This document shows positions 13,499 through 19,425 of a stretch of 64,000 nucleotides of DNA, one piece after another; position 1 is the first letter of the stretch; each line of letters begins with the position of its first letter. The stretch is taken from positions 2,418,001-2,482,000 of the forward strand of contig NZ_JAZHSD010000001.1 of assembly GCF_036924745.1 (NCBI RefSeq), given 5' to 3'. The position numbers and the translations under genes are program-made. The notes under the pieces are model-generated. The model was not told the origin of the DNA. It saw nothing but the letters and a program-made list of their open reading frames with translations, and did not search any database. Source of the DNA: Bradyrhizobium sp. AZCC 1693 (GTDB lineage Bacteria; Pseudomonadota; Alphaproteobacteria; Rhizobiales; Xanthobacteraceae).

Positions 13499-14893
13499 TC
13501 ATTCGCGTGCCGGCCATTGCGGCGGATGGCTGCCGAGCGGCATCGCCGGACGGGCCCAAAATGCCGGGGTTTTTGACAGAATCGCGGAGTGCCTGACCGA
13601 TCGCAGCGCGCCAAAGCCTGAGTCCATGTCCTCGACGAGGGGCGTCACCGCCTCCCCCGTAAAATCACGGGTATTGAGGCCGTCGGCGACCCGGCCGAGA
13701 TTCCACAGCCAGCGTCCGGTCTGCGCCAGCGACACCTGGACGTGCCAGCTTCCGCCTTCACGCGCCTGGCGCGCTTTGGCCATCATGGCGCCGAACGCCA
13801 TGAAGTAGCCGGTGGCGTGGTCGAGCATCTGTGCGGGCAATTCCTTCGGTCCATCGACGCCGGCGGCCTGCCCCTCGGCGTGATTGAATCCGGTCGCCGT
13901 CTGCACCAGCGAGTCGAAACCGCGCCGCTCCGCCCACGGCCCGGCATAGCCATACGCCGACAACGTGACATAGATGATGCCGGGCTTGATGCGCGCGGCG
14001 TCCTTCGGCGAGAAGCCGAGACTGGCAATCGCGCGCGGCCGATAGCTTTGCGAAAAGATATCCGCTTCCGCCAGCAGATCGCGCAAGGTCGCCCGGCCCT
14101 GCTCGTTCTTGAGTTCGATAAAACTCGTCAGCTTGCCGCGACCGGTGTCGATGGTGAGCCACGGGATGGCCGGCAGGTCGGGCCCCGAGATCAGCAACAC
14201 ATCGGCGCCATGCGCGGCGAGCGTCCGGCCCGCCACCGGACCCGCGATCACCCGCGACAGATCGAGCACGCGAAGCCCCACGAGCGGACGATCGCCTTTG
14301 GGCCTCGGCTTCGGCGCGGCCTCGCCGATCTTTGCGATCGAGATCAGTGGCAATCCGGCAAGCGCCTTGGCGTGCGGCGTCGCCAACCATTCGTCATGCG
14401 AGCGCATGAAGGCGACGACGGCGCCACCGGCATAGGCCGCGGTCTCGAACGCCTCGCCGTCCCATTGCATCAGTGCGGCCTGAACCGCGTTACGCTCCGG
14501 CCTGCAGTTCAGCACCTTGCAGACGGCATCGCGGTGATGGGGAAAATTGGTGTGCAGGCGCACGAAGCCATCGCGCGTTTTGTAGACGCCAGCGATCGCG
14601 TCCCAGGCCGGCGGCGGCGGCTTGCCGTCGACGCGCAGATAACGTTCGCTCCGGCATTCGACCATGGCATGGCGCATATCGACCGCGACCTCCTGCGCTT
14701 GCCCGCTGCGCATCTTCCATATCTCGGCCGCCGCCAGTCCGGTCGCAGCGACGCTGACCTGTGCCGCCGCGGCGACACGAAATGAGGACGGCAATTGCGG
14801 CTCATCGCCGGTCAGCGTGAGCGCGTCGAGCGCGGAAGCTTCGCCGCCAATGGAGGTCCAGATATCGGAAAGGATTTCGCGGGGGCTTTGCAT
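13499..14893 (-). CDS. CaiB/BaiF-type CoA-transferase family protein with extra N-terminal half-domain
   Basis: A 464-residue class III CoA-transferase-like protein. Residues ~205-440 contain the family N-terminal signature GLRVLDLSRVIAGPVAGRTL, a DTGRGKLT stretch, YVTLSAYGYAGPWAERRGFD and a second-domain segment. They are preceded by ~200 residues in which AAAEIWKMRSGQAQEVAVDM resembles the second half of the same family. The order is therefore unusual compared with a normal ~400-residue enzyme. The catalytic Asp is uncertain. Acyl-CoA transferase or racemase activity is inferred only from family. Confidence 0.82.
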   Translation of the reverse strand: MQSPREILSDIWTSIGGEASALDALTLTGDEPQLPSSFRVAAAAQVSVAATGLAAAEIWKMRSGQAQEVAVDMRHAMVECRSERYLRVDGKPPPPAWDAIAGVYKTRDGFVRLHTNFPHHRDAVCKVLNCRPERNAVQAALMQWDGEAFETAAYAGGAVVAFMRSHDEWLATPHAKALAGLPLISIAKIGEAAPKPRPKGDRPLVGLRVLDLSRVIAGPVAGRTLAAHGADVLLISGPDLPAIPWLTIDTGRGKLTSFIELKNEQGRATLRDLLAEADIFSQSYRPRAIASLGFSPKDAARIKPGIIYVTLSAYGYAGPWAERRGFDSLVQTATGFNHAEGQAAGVDGPKELPAQMLDHATGYFMAFGAMMAKARQAREGGSWHVQVSLAQTGRWLWNLGRVADGLNTRDFTGEAVTPLVEDMDSGFGALRSVRHSAILSKTPAFWARPAMPLGSHPPQWPARE

Positions 14894-15026
14894 CGGCGTT
14901 TCTCTTCCCTAACGTTCTTTTTCAACATCCCACGCAAGCTTAGCCCGGATGGAGCGCGAGCGAAATCCGGGGAGAATTTGCCAATGGGATCGCTCTACTA
15001 CGTCCTTGACCGCAGAAGGAGTTGCA

Positions 15027-15314
15027 ATGGCTGCCATCGATCCCCTGACGGCGGGAGCCGTTCTGCTTGCGACTGCGGCCACGGATGCAGTCTACGTCAT
15101 GTTCACCTCGGCGGTGGTCGCGCGCAAGCGCGTGCCGGCGGCGACCTGGAGCAGCGTCTGGTATTTGCTCTCGTCCTACGCCGTCATCAGCTACACCGAG
15201 AATTGGGTTTACGTTGCCTTCGCAGCGCTCGGTTCGTGGGTGGGCGCCTATGCAACGATCACCTTCCTGCATCGCCCGCCTGGAGGACCGCCGGTTGGGG
15301 CCGCGCCGGAGTAG
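15027..15314 (+). CDS. small conserved membrane protein
   Basis: A 95-residue protein with three hydrophobic stretches (~residues 8-25, 40-58 and 62-80): MAAIDPLTAGAVLLATAATD, then TWSSVWYLLSSYAVISYTEN. The ATG at 15027 has AAGGAG eight bases upstream. No function was recognised. It is transcribed divergently from the CoA-transferase-like gene. Confidence 0.75.
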   Translation: MAAIDPLTAGAVLLATAATDAVYVMFTSAVVARKRVPAATWSSVWYLLSSYAVISYTENWVYVAFAALGSWVGAYATITFLHRPPGGPPVGAAPE

Positions 15315-16317
15315 ACCCTTGGTCGTCTTTGCGGGCTTCATCTCGCAAACAGTTCTCTGTCGTCGCCCGGCGATGACAACTGAATATGAGGTGGCATTCT
15401 CGCGACGCATTGCGTCCGAGCTTTGCTGTCAACTTTCCTGCCATCCAAACAGGGCGCAGGGAAGACCGGGTGCTTGCTGCACCCGCGGTCTCGCGTGCGA
15501 TTTGCGCAAACAAAACTGCACACGAGCATACAGGGCAGCGGGAGCATTCCGGCCTTCCCTGCGCAATGGCTTTACGGTTTACTTCGTGCTCTTCCCGGAG
15601 AACGGCTTTCTTGCCTCCGTCGCCCCCGAGAAGCTTTCGCTTCTCTTGGACTTAACGCCAGCACCGCGGCGCCCGAACCACACGACTTCGCCGTACGCTT
15701 CCGGCGCGCAACGTCTATCGCGCCCTCAGCGTCCATCGCATCTCACAGCGCGTTCGTGACGATCGCGAGCGCCCCTCATCCGCCGTGAGACGGGCGGAGT
15801 TATGCGGCTGATTTGGCCTGCGACGAAAGCGGAATATTTTTGCGCGGAGGGCTGGACACTTTTTGACTGATTTGCCCGTCGGGTTGATTTGTCGCGGGCC
15901 TCTGCATGAACTCACACTTGCGCGCGAAGCAAATCAGCCCGAGGCCGGATCGGGTTAGTTTGGCGCACCCGCCACCTTCACGTCGTCATGCGAGCCAACG
16001 GGTCGCAATGACGGAAGGAGGGGCGCTCTCGCCTACCCAATCACTGCATCCCGGGTTTGGTGCGATCGCGCCGAGCGCGCGTGCGGTGACGAGATCGCAT
16101 CCCTCTTCGCCAGGAAGAGGTTCATGGTCGCATGATGGTTCTTACCCATCGTCAATGGATCGGTCGGCGATTTGATCGAGAAGGCGGCAGGGAGGCTGTC
16201 GCGCGGTTTGCTAGATGAGTTGAGACTAGGGATTCTGTTCTTTGGACGGCAGTAAAAAGCTCTGTTTTTGCTAAACAATGCAAGGTAGCATCGACCTCGC
16301 CTCTAACGGAGAGTCTC
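15315..16317. repeat. ~1 kb without a credible gene; degenerate dispersed-repeat DNA
   Basis: Open frames here lack coding character and overlap one another. From about 15395 to 15900 the text (TGCACCCGCGGTCTCGCG, GGAGCATTCCGGCCTTCCC, CGTTCGTGACGATCGCGA) resembles, from memory, a long intergenic repeat family common in Bradyrhizobium. Around 15990-16015 GTCATGCGAGCCAACGGGTC resembles a second short repeat. From 16040 to 16300 I see nothing assignable except the promoter region of the next gene. Confidence 0.5.
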
Positions 16318-18315
16318 ATGGGTCTACGTATCTCTGTTGCGATACTGCTTTCCCTGACCTGCTCCCAAGGCTGGGCCCAATCCAACGCGATCCGCGTTGT
16401 CTCAAGCTTCTCGGAAAAGTCATCGCTTGCAAGTACCGTGAGGGAATTTCAAACGCGAACGACGGAGCGCCTTGGGAAAGAGTGGAAGATTGAAATTCTT
16501 CCACCCTCCGTTAATGTCCTTGATACCGTCCGCACCGGTGGTGCCGACCTTGCTGTATTGTCGACTTCCGCGCTGGCTTCGCGGAAGTCGCTGTTAAGCA
16601 TCGATGATAACGACACCAGCTTTGCAATATTCGATCTTCCATTTTTCTTTAAGGACCTGCAGGAAGCGCAAGAGGTACAAAAATCAGCAGTCGGCGATAC
16701 GGTACTTGCTTCTGTTGGAAAGCTTGGCCTTGTTGGATTGGGGTATTGGAATGGAGGGATGAGCCAGCTGTTTGGCAAACCCGTCCAAAGTGTGGATCGT
16801 CTGAAGGGCCTGAAGTTTAGAACAACGATCTCGCCAGAAGGCCGGGCAGCGGTCGCTGCGCTGGGAGCTTCCCCATCTACTTTTGCGGCCGGGGAGATAG
16901 GGATGGCACTGCAAGCCGGCGCCATCGACGCTATCGAAACCGCGCCGCACTATGTGACGGACGGCGTCATCAACCTGCAAGGCGGCTCAATTTCCGAGAT
17001 TAACTTCCGACCGCTGGTAGCAGTTGTAGTAGCGAGGCGGGAATTCTGGCGAACTCTGTCACTTCAGAATCAAACGATCCTGCTTGACGAAGTTTCCCGC
17101 TCAGCTGAAAGCGCGACAAATCAGGCCATACAGCGGGACCGGTCAGCCCTCGACCAACTTAATGTCTCTGCTGTCTACTCGCATACGGACATTTCACCAA
17201 TGGAGCTGGCTAATTTTCGCCAGTCAGCCTCGAAGACTTGGGGAACCACCACTTCGTCGCGGGTTGATGGGGTTCTCTTCGTTTCGAAGCAAATAGTGGC
17301 TCGAACTCCACCGACCACTCCCTCCATAGCCCCGTCAACCATGACGGTCAGCACGCCGGTCTTTTTCGCGACCGATCGCAAGGATGAGGGCGCCACCGAC
17401 CCGAACGTCCGCTTCGCCGGGCAGCGTGGAACCTTGTCATTCGGACGTGCCGAAGTCACCGTTGGCATCAATCGGCCGGTCGCTAGCGATCCCGACCCCG
17501 CTACGAAGCTCGACCAGATATCGCTCCTGTCCCGCGCAGATTTTATAGCGAAGCTTAACGATAGGTTGACCGGCAGCAGCCGCAAAGAAGTTCTGATTTA
17601 CGTTCACGGTTTCAAGAATTCGTTCGCGGACGCCGCAAAGAACGCAGCGTTGCTTGCATCCGATATCAAGTTGGACGGCGCGGTGACGATTTTCAGTTGG
17701 CCTTCCGCGGCCATCGCCTCCGAGTATTGGGGAGACGAAGACGAGGTTCTAGCAAGCCGAGCAGCCTTTCTTGATTTCCTCCAGGCTGTTCGAAGTGCGG
17801 CAGGCGCTGGCCGTATCAATATTGTTGCGCACAGCATGGGCAGCCGTCTTATTGCCGAAGCAATGGAATGGGCTCTGGGGCGTCCCGGCTTTAAACAACC
17901 CCTCTTGCAACATCTCGTCCTGGCGGCACCGGATATCTATGTTGCGAGGTTTGAACAAGCCGCACCAAGTTTAGTGGCATTTGCAAAGCGCGTAACATTG
18001 TACGCCTCCGACAATGACCAAGCCCTGTGGTGCTCCAACCAGATCGTCCACAGCAAGCGGCGTGCAGGCCAAGGAGGCAAGGAAGTCGTGGTAGTCAGCG
18101 GTGTTGATACGCTCGATGCAACGCCCGCCGACGTGCGACCATGGTGGCAATGGCGCCCCTGCGGCTCTGGTCATTCTTATCTGACACGCAACAGTTCAGT
18201 CCTCGCCGACCTACACAATCTAATGACCTTCGATGCAGCGCCACGTGAACGGTTTCGTTTGCAGGCGCGACAGAAAGGCACCCTCAGCTACTGGATATTT
18301 CAGGCTGCGCAGTGA
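16318..18315 (+). CDS. TRAP-type (DctP) solute-binding domain fused to DUF900 alpha/beta hydrolase
   Basis: A 665-residue two-domain protein. Residues 1-20 are a Sec signal peptide ending GWA. Residues ~24-310 are a DctP-like solute-binding domain: FAIFDLPFFFKD (102-113), LGYWNGGMSQLF (141-152), LKGLKFRT (162-169) and a helix with AGEIGMALQAGAIDAIE. A Thr/Pro linker (~328-345) leads to a DUF900 hydrolase starting at VFFATDRK (348-355), with VHGFKN (429-434), nucleophile Ser506 in AHSMGS, Asp565 and His619 in GHS. No TRAP permease is near. Base use is visibly less GC-rich than neighbours, suggesting transfer. The domain boundaries are seen directly; function is inferred to be periplasmic ligand binding coupled to ester or amide hydrolysis. 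Confidence 0.85.
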   Translation: MGLRISVAILLSLTCSQGWAQSNAIRVVSSFSEKSSLASTVREFQTRTTERLGKEWKIEILPPSVNVLDTVRTGGADLAVLSTSALASRKSLLSIDDNDTSFAIFDLPFFFKDLQEAQEVQKSAVGDTVLASVGKLGLVGLGYWNGGMSQLFGKPVQSVDRLKGLKFRTTISPEGRAAVAALGASPSTFAAGEIGMALQAGAIDAIETAPHYVTDGVINLQGGSISEINFRPLVAVVVARREFWRTLSLQNQTILLDEVSRSAESATNQAIQRDRSALDQLNVSAVYSHTDISPMELANFRQSASKTWGTTTSSRVDGVLFVSKQIVARTPPTTPSIAPSTMTVSTPVFFATDRKDEGATDPNVRFAGQRGTLSFGRAEVTVGINRPVASDPDPATKLDQISLLSRADFIAKLNDRLTGSSRKEVLIYVHGFKNSFADAAKNAALLASDIKLDGAVTIFSWPSAAIASEYWGDEDEVLASRAAFLDFLQAVRSAAGAGRINIVAHSMGSRLIAEAMEWALGRPGFKQPLLQHLVLAAPDIYVARFEQAAPSLVAFAKRVTLYASDNDQALWCSNQIVHSKRRAGQGGKEVVVVSGVDTLDATPADVRPWWQWRPCGSGHSYLTRNSSVLADLHNLMTFDAAPRERFRLQARQKGTLSYWIFQAAQ

Positions 18316-18654
18316 AGTCGGTCACGTATCGGGTTAGAGCGGGTCTTGGTCATCATACACTCACGCCATCGCGAAACTTTAGATCCGTTAGCAACTGGCC
18401 GGAGTTCACCACAGAAGCACCTGACGTCGATCCGATCCGCCCGCACGTTCAGGGGCGCGAGATCGATCTGTTACGCGAAATCTGGTCACATCATCAGAAA
18501 AATTTTCTCGCGACTCGATGACGTCGCCACGCGACCAACTGCCTGCTCGACACAAAAAGACGCAGAGCTTGCCGGCCCGGCTTCGGCGATTTGAGCCTTC
18601 TTCGGAGTTAACCTGGCCGCTACAATGCGGCGGAATCACATAAGGAAAAACAAG
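18316..18654. other. intergenic, no gene seen
   Basis: Only short frames without coding character. TAAGGA, the Shine-Dalgarno for the SDR gene, lies at 18641-18646. Nothing else was recognised. Confidence 0.5.
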
Positions 18655-19425
18655 ATGGACTTGGGTTTGAAGGGCAGAAACGCCGTGGTGCTCGGCGGCA
18701 CGCGCGGCATCGGGCGGGCGATTGCGGACACGCTGGCGGGCGAAGGCGCAGGCGTCGCAGTGTGCGCCCGCAACGCGGATCAGGTCGCCGGCACCGTTAC
18801 GGAGCTGAAGGCGATGGGTGTGAAGGCGACCGGGGCATCCGTGGATATCACCGACGCCGCCGCGTTGAAGTCGTGGATCGCGGATGTTGCGCGGCAGCTG
18901 GGCAGCGTCGACATGCTGTTCTCCAATGCCGGGGCCATGGCGCAAGGCGGCGATCCCGCGTCGTGGGAGCAGAATTTTCGGCTCGACGTGCTCGGCGCCG
19001 TCAACGCGTTCGAGGCCGCGCGGCCGTTGCTCGAGGCCAGTGGCGAGAAGACCGGCGACGCGGCCTTCGTCATCATTTCATCGGTTTCGGCGGCGCAGGC
19101 CGATACCGCCAGCTCCTACGGCCCAATCAAGGCGGCGCTGATCCACATGGCCAAGGGACTGTCGCGGCAATACGCTGCCAGGAAAATCCGCGTCAACGTG
19201 GTGTCGCCGGGCACCGTCTATTTCAAGGGCGGCATCTGGAACATGGTCGAGCAGAACATGCCGAAGCGCTACCAGGACGCGCTGGCGCGCAACCCGACCG
19301 GCCGCATGGCAACGCCGCAGGAAATCGCCAACGCGGCGGTGTTCCTGGCGAGCCCGGCCTCCTCCTTCACGACGGGTTCGAACCTCGTCGTCGACGGCGC
19401 GATCTCGAACCGGGTGAATTTCTAG
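18655..19425 (+). CDS. SDR-family oxidoreductase
   Basis: A 256-residue classical short-chain dehydrogenase/reductase. NAD(P) binding is seen as GGTRGIG (14-20) and NAG (91-93). The catalytic Ser143, Tyr155 and Lys159 (SYGPIK) are in place, and the C-terminus has GSNLVVDGA. The start at 18655 follows TAAGGA; an in-frame upstream ATG would add ten unlikely residues. The substrate is unknown. It stands alone and is followed by a palindromic repeat that may end transcription. Confidence 0.9.
   Translation: MDLGLKGRNAVVLGGTRGIGRAIADTLAGEGAGVAVCARNADQVAGTVTELKAMGVKATGASVDITDAAALKSWIADVARQLGSVDMLFSNAGAMAQGGDPASWEQNFRLDVLGAVNAFEAARPLLEASGEKTGDAAFVIISSVSAAQADTASSYGPIKAALIHMAKGLSRQYAARKIRVNVVSPGTVYFKGGIWNMVEQNMPKRYQDALARNPTGRMATPQEIANAAVFLASPASSFTTGSNLVVDGAISNRVNF

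Follow-up and report, generated by a model that had tools for sequence, protein, structure and literature searches.

Within the 64,000-nucleotide stretch of Bradyrhizobium sp. AZCC 1693 DNA analysed here (the window) lies a gene that, judged from its sequence and a structure model, encodes one intact protein: a signal peptide, a TRAP-type solute-binding domain of the DctP family, a Thr/Pro linker and a serine hydrolase of the DUF900 family (Table 1). We lean towards reading the product as a periplasmic, lipase-like DUF900 hydrolase whose former transport domain would capture a ligand or gate the enzyme. TRAP binding proteins are known as carboxylate-tied parts of transport systems; in this protein that clamp is attached to an enzyme, and the carboxylate arginine is missing from many members of the fusion family. 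The fused binding domain offers a handle on both halves: the molecule that it binds may show what the enzyme cuts or senses.

The 665-codon open reading frame contains no internal stop and is located in a single-contig 7.6-Mb genome. Pfam recognises both halves of the protein, DctP at residues 32-308 (PF03480; E 1.6e-37, 129.8 bits against a curated cut-off of 23.4) and DUF900 at residues 409-585 (PF05990; E 1.8e-36, 126.2 bits against 20.5). The predicted structure of the whole protein has a mean pLDDT of 85.9 and a pTM of 0.84, with block pLDDT values of 54-90 in the linker around residues 330-345. Export is predicted: a home-made signal rule detects a signal-like start in the window protein and places the cleavage elsewhere than AWA/QS. 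This rule is lax: it gave a positive call for 119 of the 141 other DUF900 proteins and for 23 of the 28 fusions (fragment P0016 included), passing over P0005, P0010, P0013, P0014 and P0019. The architecture put forward in the preliminary description, from signal peptide to hydrolase, is therefore borne out by reading frame, Pfam, fold and model, and in the structure model the two halves fold as DctP and as an alpha/beta hydrolase.

Table 1. Features of the fusion gene and its surroundings, in window coordinates.
Feature	Position	Strand	Evidence
DctP-DUF900 fusion gene, 665 aa, predicted to be exported	16318..18315	+	ORF, Pfam, other copies
Predicted Sec signal peptide, residues 1-20 (AWA then QS)	16318..16377	+	By eye; model helix 2-16; home-made rule
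DctP domain (TRAP solute-binding, PF03480), residues 32-308	16411..17241	+	Pfam; Foldseek
Thr/Pro/Ser-rich interdomain linker, ~residues 330-345	17305..17352	+	Composition, model
Hydrolase half, residues 346-662 (Pfam DUF900 match 409-585)	17353..18303	+	Pfam, fold
Putative nucleophile Ser506 in AHSMG, after strand 499-505	17833..17835	+	28/28 fusions, 141/141 other DUF900 proteins
Putative catalytic acid Asp567, after strand 556-563	18016..18018	+	28/28 fusions, 141/141 others
Putative catalytic His619	18172..18174	+	27/28 fusions, 136/141 others (5 gaps)
Cys572, fusion-specific, five residues past the acid	18031..18033	+	26/28 fusions, 0/141 others
Cys615, fusion-specific, four residues ahead of the catalytic His	18160..18162	+	27/28 fusions, 0/141 others (138 gapped there)
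Arg168, at the place of the ligand-carboxylate Arg of TRAP binding proteins	16819..16821	+	Alignments; available text of PMC4646407 for role
Stretch without syntenic counterpart in five relatives, apart from the repeat (G161) or a piece of it (G238)	15315..18584	.	Synteny comparison
Dispersed repeat, ~0.5 kb, also at the gene-free site of G161	15368..15947	.	Genome comparison

The same combination of domains recurs in other bacteria. A protein search, with scoring limited to the 7,995 candidates that had the most words in common, returned 110 proteins: the window protein (P0001), 22 fusion relatives that are 32-86% identical to it (P0002-P0023) and 87 DUF900 proteins without DctP. Both Pfam domains were found in 21 of the 22 relatives, the exception, P0016, being cut short at its N-terminus and retaining DUF900 and the end of the DctP part. 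At the level of genomes, the genus search (265 genomes) found the fusion in two, the window genome (G000) and G144, with 28 other matching genomes containing the hydrolase part only; besides G000, the order search (397 genomes) added G550 and G420 and the class search (385 genomes) G773 and G732, and a phylum search of 398 genomes at E 1e-90 yielded no fusion beyond G000. These searches scored one to four candidates per genome under strict E limits, and very divergent fusions like that of G420 could escape the genus, class and phylum searches. DctP and DUF900 are both Pfam-confirmed in all five of the other genomes, and the fusions of G550 and G773 are the sole matches in their respective families (12 and 23 genomes). 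Given so few matches across the genomes searched, the fusion family is rare and sporadic. Among plasmid records, 734 of 72,556 matched, none covering 80% of the query.

The domain-architecture search thus finds the fusion in 21 further proteins of the database and in five further genomes, which bears directly on whether the window gene might be two genes joined by an assembly or annotation artefact. There is next to no chance of this: the frame is open in a single-contig genome and the independent copies with the same layout refute it, nor were separate close genes for the two halves found in relatives, the outcome that the preliminary description had named as a possible refutation. Recent fusion of two local genes is likewise unsupported, the nearest clear stand-alone DctP protein (P0112) being 31% identical over 84%. 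The last ~45 residues of a further protein, P0111 (381 aa, 39% identical), resemble neither domain by eye; it may represent a fusion whose frame is broken. In a tree of 91 hydrolase halves, comprising the 28 fusions and 63 of 138 other DUF900 halves, 26 of the 28 fusions group together (SH-aLRT 94); those of G420 and G732 form long branches outside this group, with unsure placement. Constraining all 28 together was not rejected (p-AU 0.71) and gave a slightly better likelihood. A single origin of the fusion is therefore plausible, not proven.

The hydrolase half has an alpha/beta-hydrolase fold in the model and a Ser-Asp-His triad in sequence. Of the triad originally proposed, Ser506 and His619 stand; the acid, however, is to be sought at Asp567, since position 565 varies among the fusions whereas Asp567 is conserved. 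His430 is present in 27 of the 28 fusions, these counts and those of Table 1 being based on a 19-fusion profile and on a set of 141 other DUF900 proteins that contains near-copies, with a few genus proteins represented repeatedly. The one departure from the pattern is the G420 protein, with Pro at 430 and Tyr aligned at 619; its His lies one place before the aligned Tyr, and the second difference may be an effect of alignment. Along the sequence, Cys572 and Cys615 flank the putative acid and histidine of the triad. As a pair they are present in 26 of the 28 fusions and in none of the 141 other DUF900 proteins, the exceptions being the two most divergent members, G420 and G732, which lack Cys572. 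The Cys572 count is the cleaner of the two figures because 138 of the 141 comparison proteins are gapped at the place of Cys615. A disulphide between the two, if formed, would staple the loops bearing the catalytic acid and histidine.

What this hydrolase acts on is not readable from its neighbours in structure, lipases and the PHB depolymerase PhaZ7, whose top matches are tied at 9-18% identity. The PhaZ7-type PHA depolymerase model NF050060 scores 13.0 bits against a cut-off of 450, and a sequence search for solved structures near the hydrolase half found none, the best match (E 0.11) being an antibody chain. DUF900 alpha/beta hydrolases (PF05990) are described as having no known function in the available text of PMC11878206. 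Among the longer DUF900 proteins of the order, of which 10 of 11 were scanned, five carry TPR (L041, L044, L049, L051 and L054) and one IalB (L047) over cut-off, the remaining four having, outside the hydrolase, no further domain above the cut-off. In agreement with the preliminary description, according to which such hydrolases stand alone or with other partners, the DUF900 hydrolase would therefore seem to be a module that takes different N-terminal partners, DctP among them. The sole other DUF900 match in the window genome (L002 979-2172, C1:337770) has an N-terminus that looks lipoprotein- or Tat-like by eye.

The DctP half has the fold of a TRAP binding protein. Its Foldseek matches, among the best 50 listed, are TRAP binding proteins with TM (target) scores of 0.76-0.86 (9dsy: E 1.7e-22, TM 0.83), which disposes of the other possible refutation, a DctP segment without a solute-binding fold. 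Of the NCBIfam models, NF037995 scores 90.7 bits against a cut-off of 50 and TIGR00787 90.3 against 175. Arg168 aligns with the Arg of the GLKFR motif of TRAP binding proteins, which, judged from sequence, we equate with the ligand arginine (Arg147 in SiaP). According to the available text of PMC4646407, this arginine confers carboxylate specificity on TRAP binding proteins and is present in 5943 of 6142 members of the Pfam family and absent from 199 (3%), and a binding protein without it, Csal_0678, binds ethanolamine.

Among the fusions the ligand arginine is far from constant. It is found in 14 of the 26 that have a residue at this place, among them the window protein and the five proteins closest to it (P0002-P0006); the other 12 have Gly (five), Ser (three), Thr, Ile, Leu or Tyr (one each). 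As a control, all 20 stand-alone DctP proteins of the same genome contain it (a 21st match is the window gene itself). Mapped onto the hydrolase tree, on which gain and loss are not separable, the arginine state changes eight times, at least five changes being forced by supported branches. The observed states cluster on the tree no better than randomly shuffled ones do (mean 8.9 changes; 183 of 500 shuffles were as low), which may reflect rapid switching or noise in the alignment. In the LPFFF and YWNGG motifs, residues are invariant across 19 aligned fusions. Compared pairwise in these 19, the DctP half is less alike than the hydrolase half in 167 of 171 pairs (means 35% vs 45%). The hydrolase appears to be the steady part of the family and the binding pocket the variable part, which fits a clamp that selects or senses a molecule.

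The composition of the gene and its site point to acquisition, as had been proposed. With a GC content of 0.558 and a GC3 of 0.584 it lies below all eight neighbouring ORFs (0.62-0.67 and 0.74-0.88, respectively), in line with the lower GC noted earlier; elsewhere the GC3 of the fusion is low in G773 (0.42), G732 (0.48) and G144 (0.60) and not in G550 (0.84) and G420 (0.77). The five relatives compared at this site (G062, G161, G072, G238 and G008) retain both flanks, the block on the left up to 15312-15314 and, from 18585-18651 onwards, the SDR gene, without the fusion gene. What separates the flanks is ~200 bp of DNA in G072 and in G008, one copy of the dispersed repeat in G161, and other stretches in G062 (~2 kb) and in G238 (~1.7 kb, with a piece of the repeat), and tblastn of the fusion protein against these five site stretches found nothing. 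The gene was therefore gained here or lost in all five relatives, gain being the simpler account. We infer that it is a sporadic low-GC3 insertion and that the family has spread horizontally between bacteria.

The flanks had been called repeat-rich, and this holds for one ~0.5-kb element upstream of the gene, present whole or in part at 13 further places in the same genome (among the matches listed) and at many in relatives; beyond it, the region 14800-18700 contains few small repeats, namely an 18-nt direct repeat in two copies and two pairs of imperfect inverted repeats. The interval between the CoA-transferase III and SDR genes holds different stretches in the relatives, like a small insertion hot spot. 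No tRNA was found in the window, and a promoter scan of 15900-18700 gave no sigma-70-type match.

Gene neighbourhoods offer few pointers to function. The six window neighbours that were Pfam-scanned (HlyD-type, CoA-transferase III, SDR, HbpS-like, one unmatched and AraC-type with cupin) suggest no shared pathway. The preliminary description had noted the absence of a DctQM permease, and for DctM, the component that the search covered, this stands: no DctM gene lies within 200 kb of the fusion. Because the nearest is ~209 kb away, leaving the gene without an adjacent permease partner, we do not class its product as a subunit of a TRAP transporter. DctM matches appear as two neighbouring pieces at G000:C1:2862753-2864108, 4856173-4857855 and 5803715-5805169; these splits may be insertions relative to the model rather than breaks. 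As for the five other copies, whose neighbours were in part Pfam-scanned and otherwise read by eye in ORF lists, no conserved operon partner was seen by eye except for TRAP loci in two. In G420 the fusion gene adjoins a gene for a 2120-aa protein (L064 1176-7538) with no Pfam match over cut-off, and the genes further along are, presumably, IS66-type transposition genes, as read by eye. A role in anti-phage defence was also considered and set aside, as PADLOC models matched the fusion protein with 0 families at E up to 0.1.

Those two TRAP loci speak for a rival explanation that we regard as unlikely, in which the DctP half docks on a DctQM permease encoded elsewhere, the hydrolase trims esters and the freed acid is imported. 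In G144 a DctP gene lies ~270 bp downstream of the fusion gene and is followed by DctM, all in the same orientation (the DctQ start in this locus was read by eye), and in G550 it is ~1.8 kb from a divergent DctP-DctQ-DctM set, with a GntR-type regulator between. A TRAP locus therefore lies beside the fusion in two of six host genomes (two of five without the window genome), for which, with 18-53 other DctP genes per genome, the probability of at least two by chance is ~0.007, a rough and post hoc estimate. The Arg168 retained by the window copy would also suit import of an acid. Set against this are the DctM-free surroundings of the window gene, the lack of any recognised TRAP gene beside the fusion in G773, G732 and G420 (ORF starts by eye) and the G144 locus itself, where the neighbouring DctP has Arg and the fusion Leu (in G550 both have Arg).

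It is equally improbable, in our estimate, that the DctP half is a scaffold or protein-binding module, like the TPR of other DUF900 proteins, that binds no small molecule. The lower conservation of this half, the absence of the ligand arginine from nearly half of the fusions with several changes on the tree, and the TPR N-termini of half of the long DUF900 proteins scanned are what such a module would lead one to expect. The arginine is nonetheless kept in the window protein and its nearest relatives, residues of both motifs are invariant in the aligned fusions, and Arg-less binding proteins can take other ligands, as Csal_0678 does with ethanolamine according to the text available (PMC4646407).

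The reading that we prefer, a hydrolase served by its former transport domain, draws on the triad kept while the ligand arginine varies, the better conserved hydrolase half, the fusion-specific cysteine pair, the DctM-free locus and the other N-terminal modules of DUF900 proteins. Counting against it are the adjacent TRAP loci, which would fit a transport link, the unclustered arginine state and the deviations of G420 and G732 at Cys572 (of G420 also at 430 and 619), together with their unsure place in the tree. In mechanistic terms, a TRAP-type solute-binding domain is joined by a flexible linker to the N-terminal side of a lipase/esterase-like alpha/beta hydrolase; its clamshell would no longer serve a permease and would bind a small molecule, and closing would present that molecule to the hydrolase or switch the hydrolase on. 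Arg168 would imply a carboxylated ligand for the window copy, and in sister proteins without the arginine the ligand class would have changed with catalysis kept. The earlier proposal that the DctP cleft captures what the hydrolase cuts belongs to this reading as a conjecture; the absence of the arginine from 12 of 26 fusions counts against its simple form, carboxylate capture. A more specific version, possible if doubtful, would have the TRAP domain sense the ligand or present the substrate within a periplasmic hydrolase that is gated by ligand; in this small, horizontally spread family the ligand class would have switched several times as the carboxylate arginine was repeatedly lost, with no change in the catalytic set.

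Both halves belong to known families, and their combination is present in sequence databases without a paper that we could find among the open-licence articles searched, whether on PF03480 with PF05990 or on a DctP-domain or TRAP-hydrolase fusion. The available text of a review of TRAP and TTT systems mentions fused DctQM and orphan binding proteins and no fused enzyme (PMC5812351). With DctP-type TRAP binding proteins (PF03480; SiaP and the P. aeruginosa proteins PA5167 and PA0884) the window protein shares family and fold over residues 32-308 as well as the ligand arginine; it differs in being fused to an enzyme with no DctM nearby, and its family in lacking the arginine in 12 of 26 members compared with 3% (199/6142) of the Pfam family (PMC4646407, available text). 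With DUF900 hydrolases (PF05990) the fusions have triad, fold and family score in common; they differ in carrying DctP instead of TPR, IalB or short N-termini, in their specific cysteines and in standing apart, 26 of 28, in the tree. Lipases and PhaZ7 are neighbours of the hydrolase half in structure, at low identity. The N-terminal domain of the lytic transglycosylase MltF has the fold of a solute-binding protein. MltF is, as far as the available text of PMC10746161 goes, a periplasmic enzyme with an N-terminal regulatory domain that is switched on by muropeptides, and it is thus a case of a ligand-engaged N-terminal domain controlling a C-terminal hydrolytic domain, the arrangement that we propose for the fusion; being a different enzyme, it offers an analogy and not kinship.
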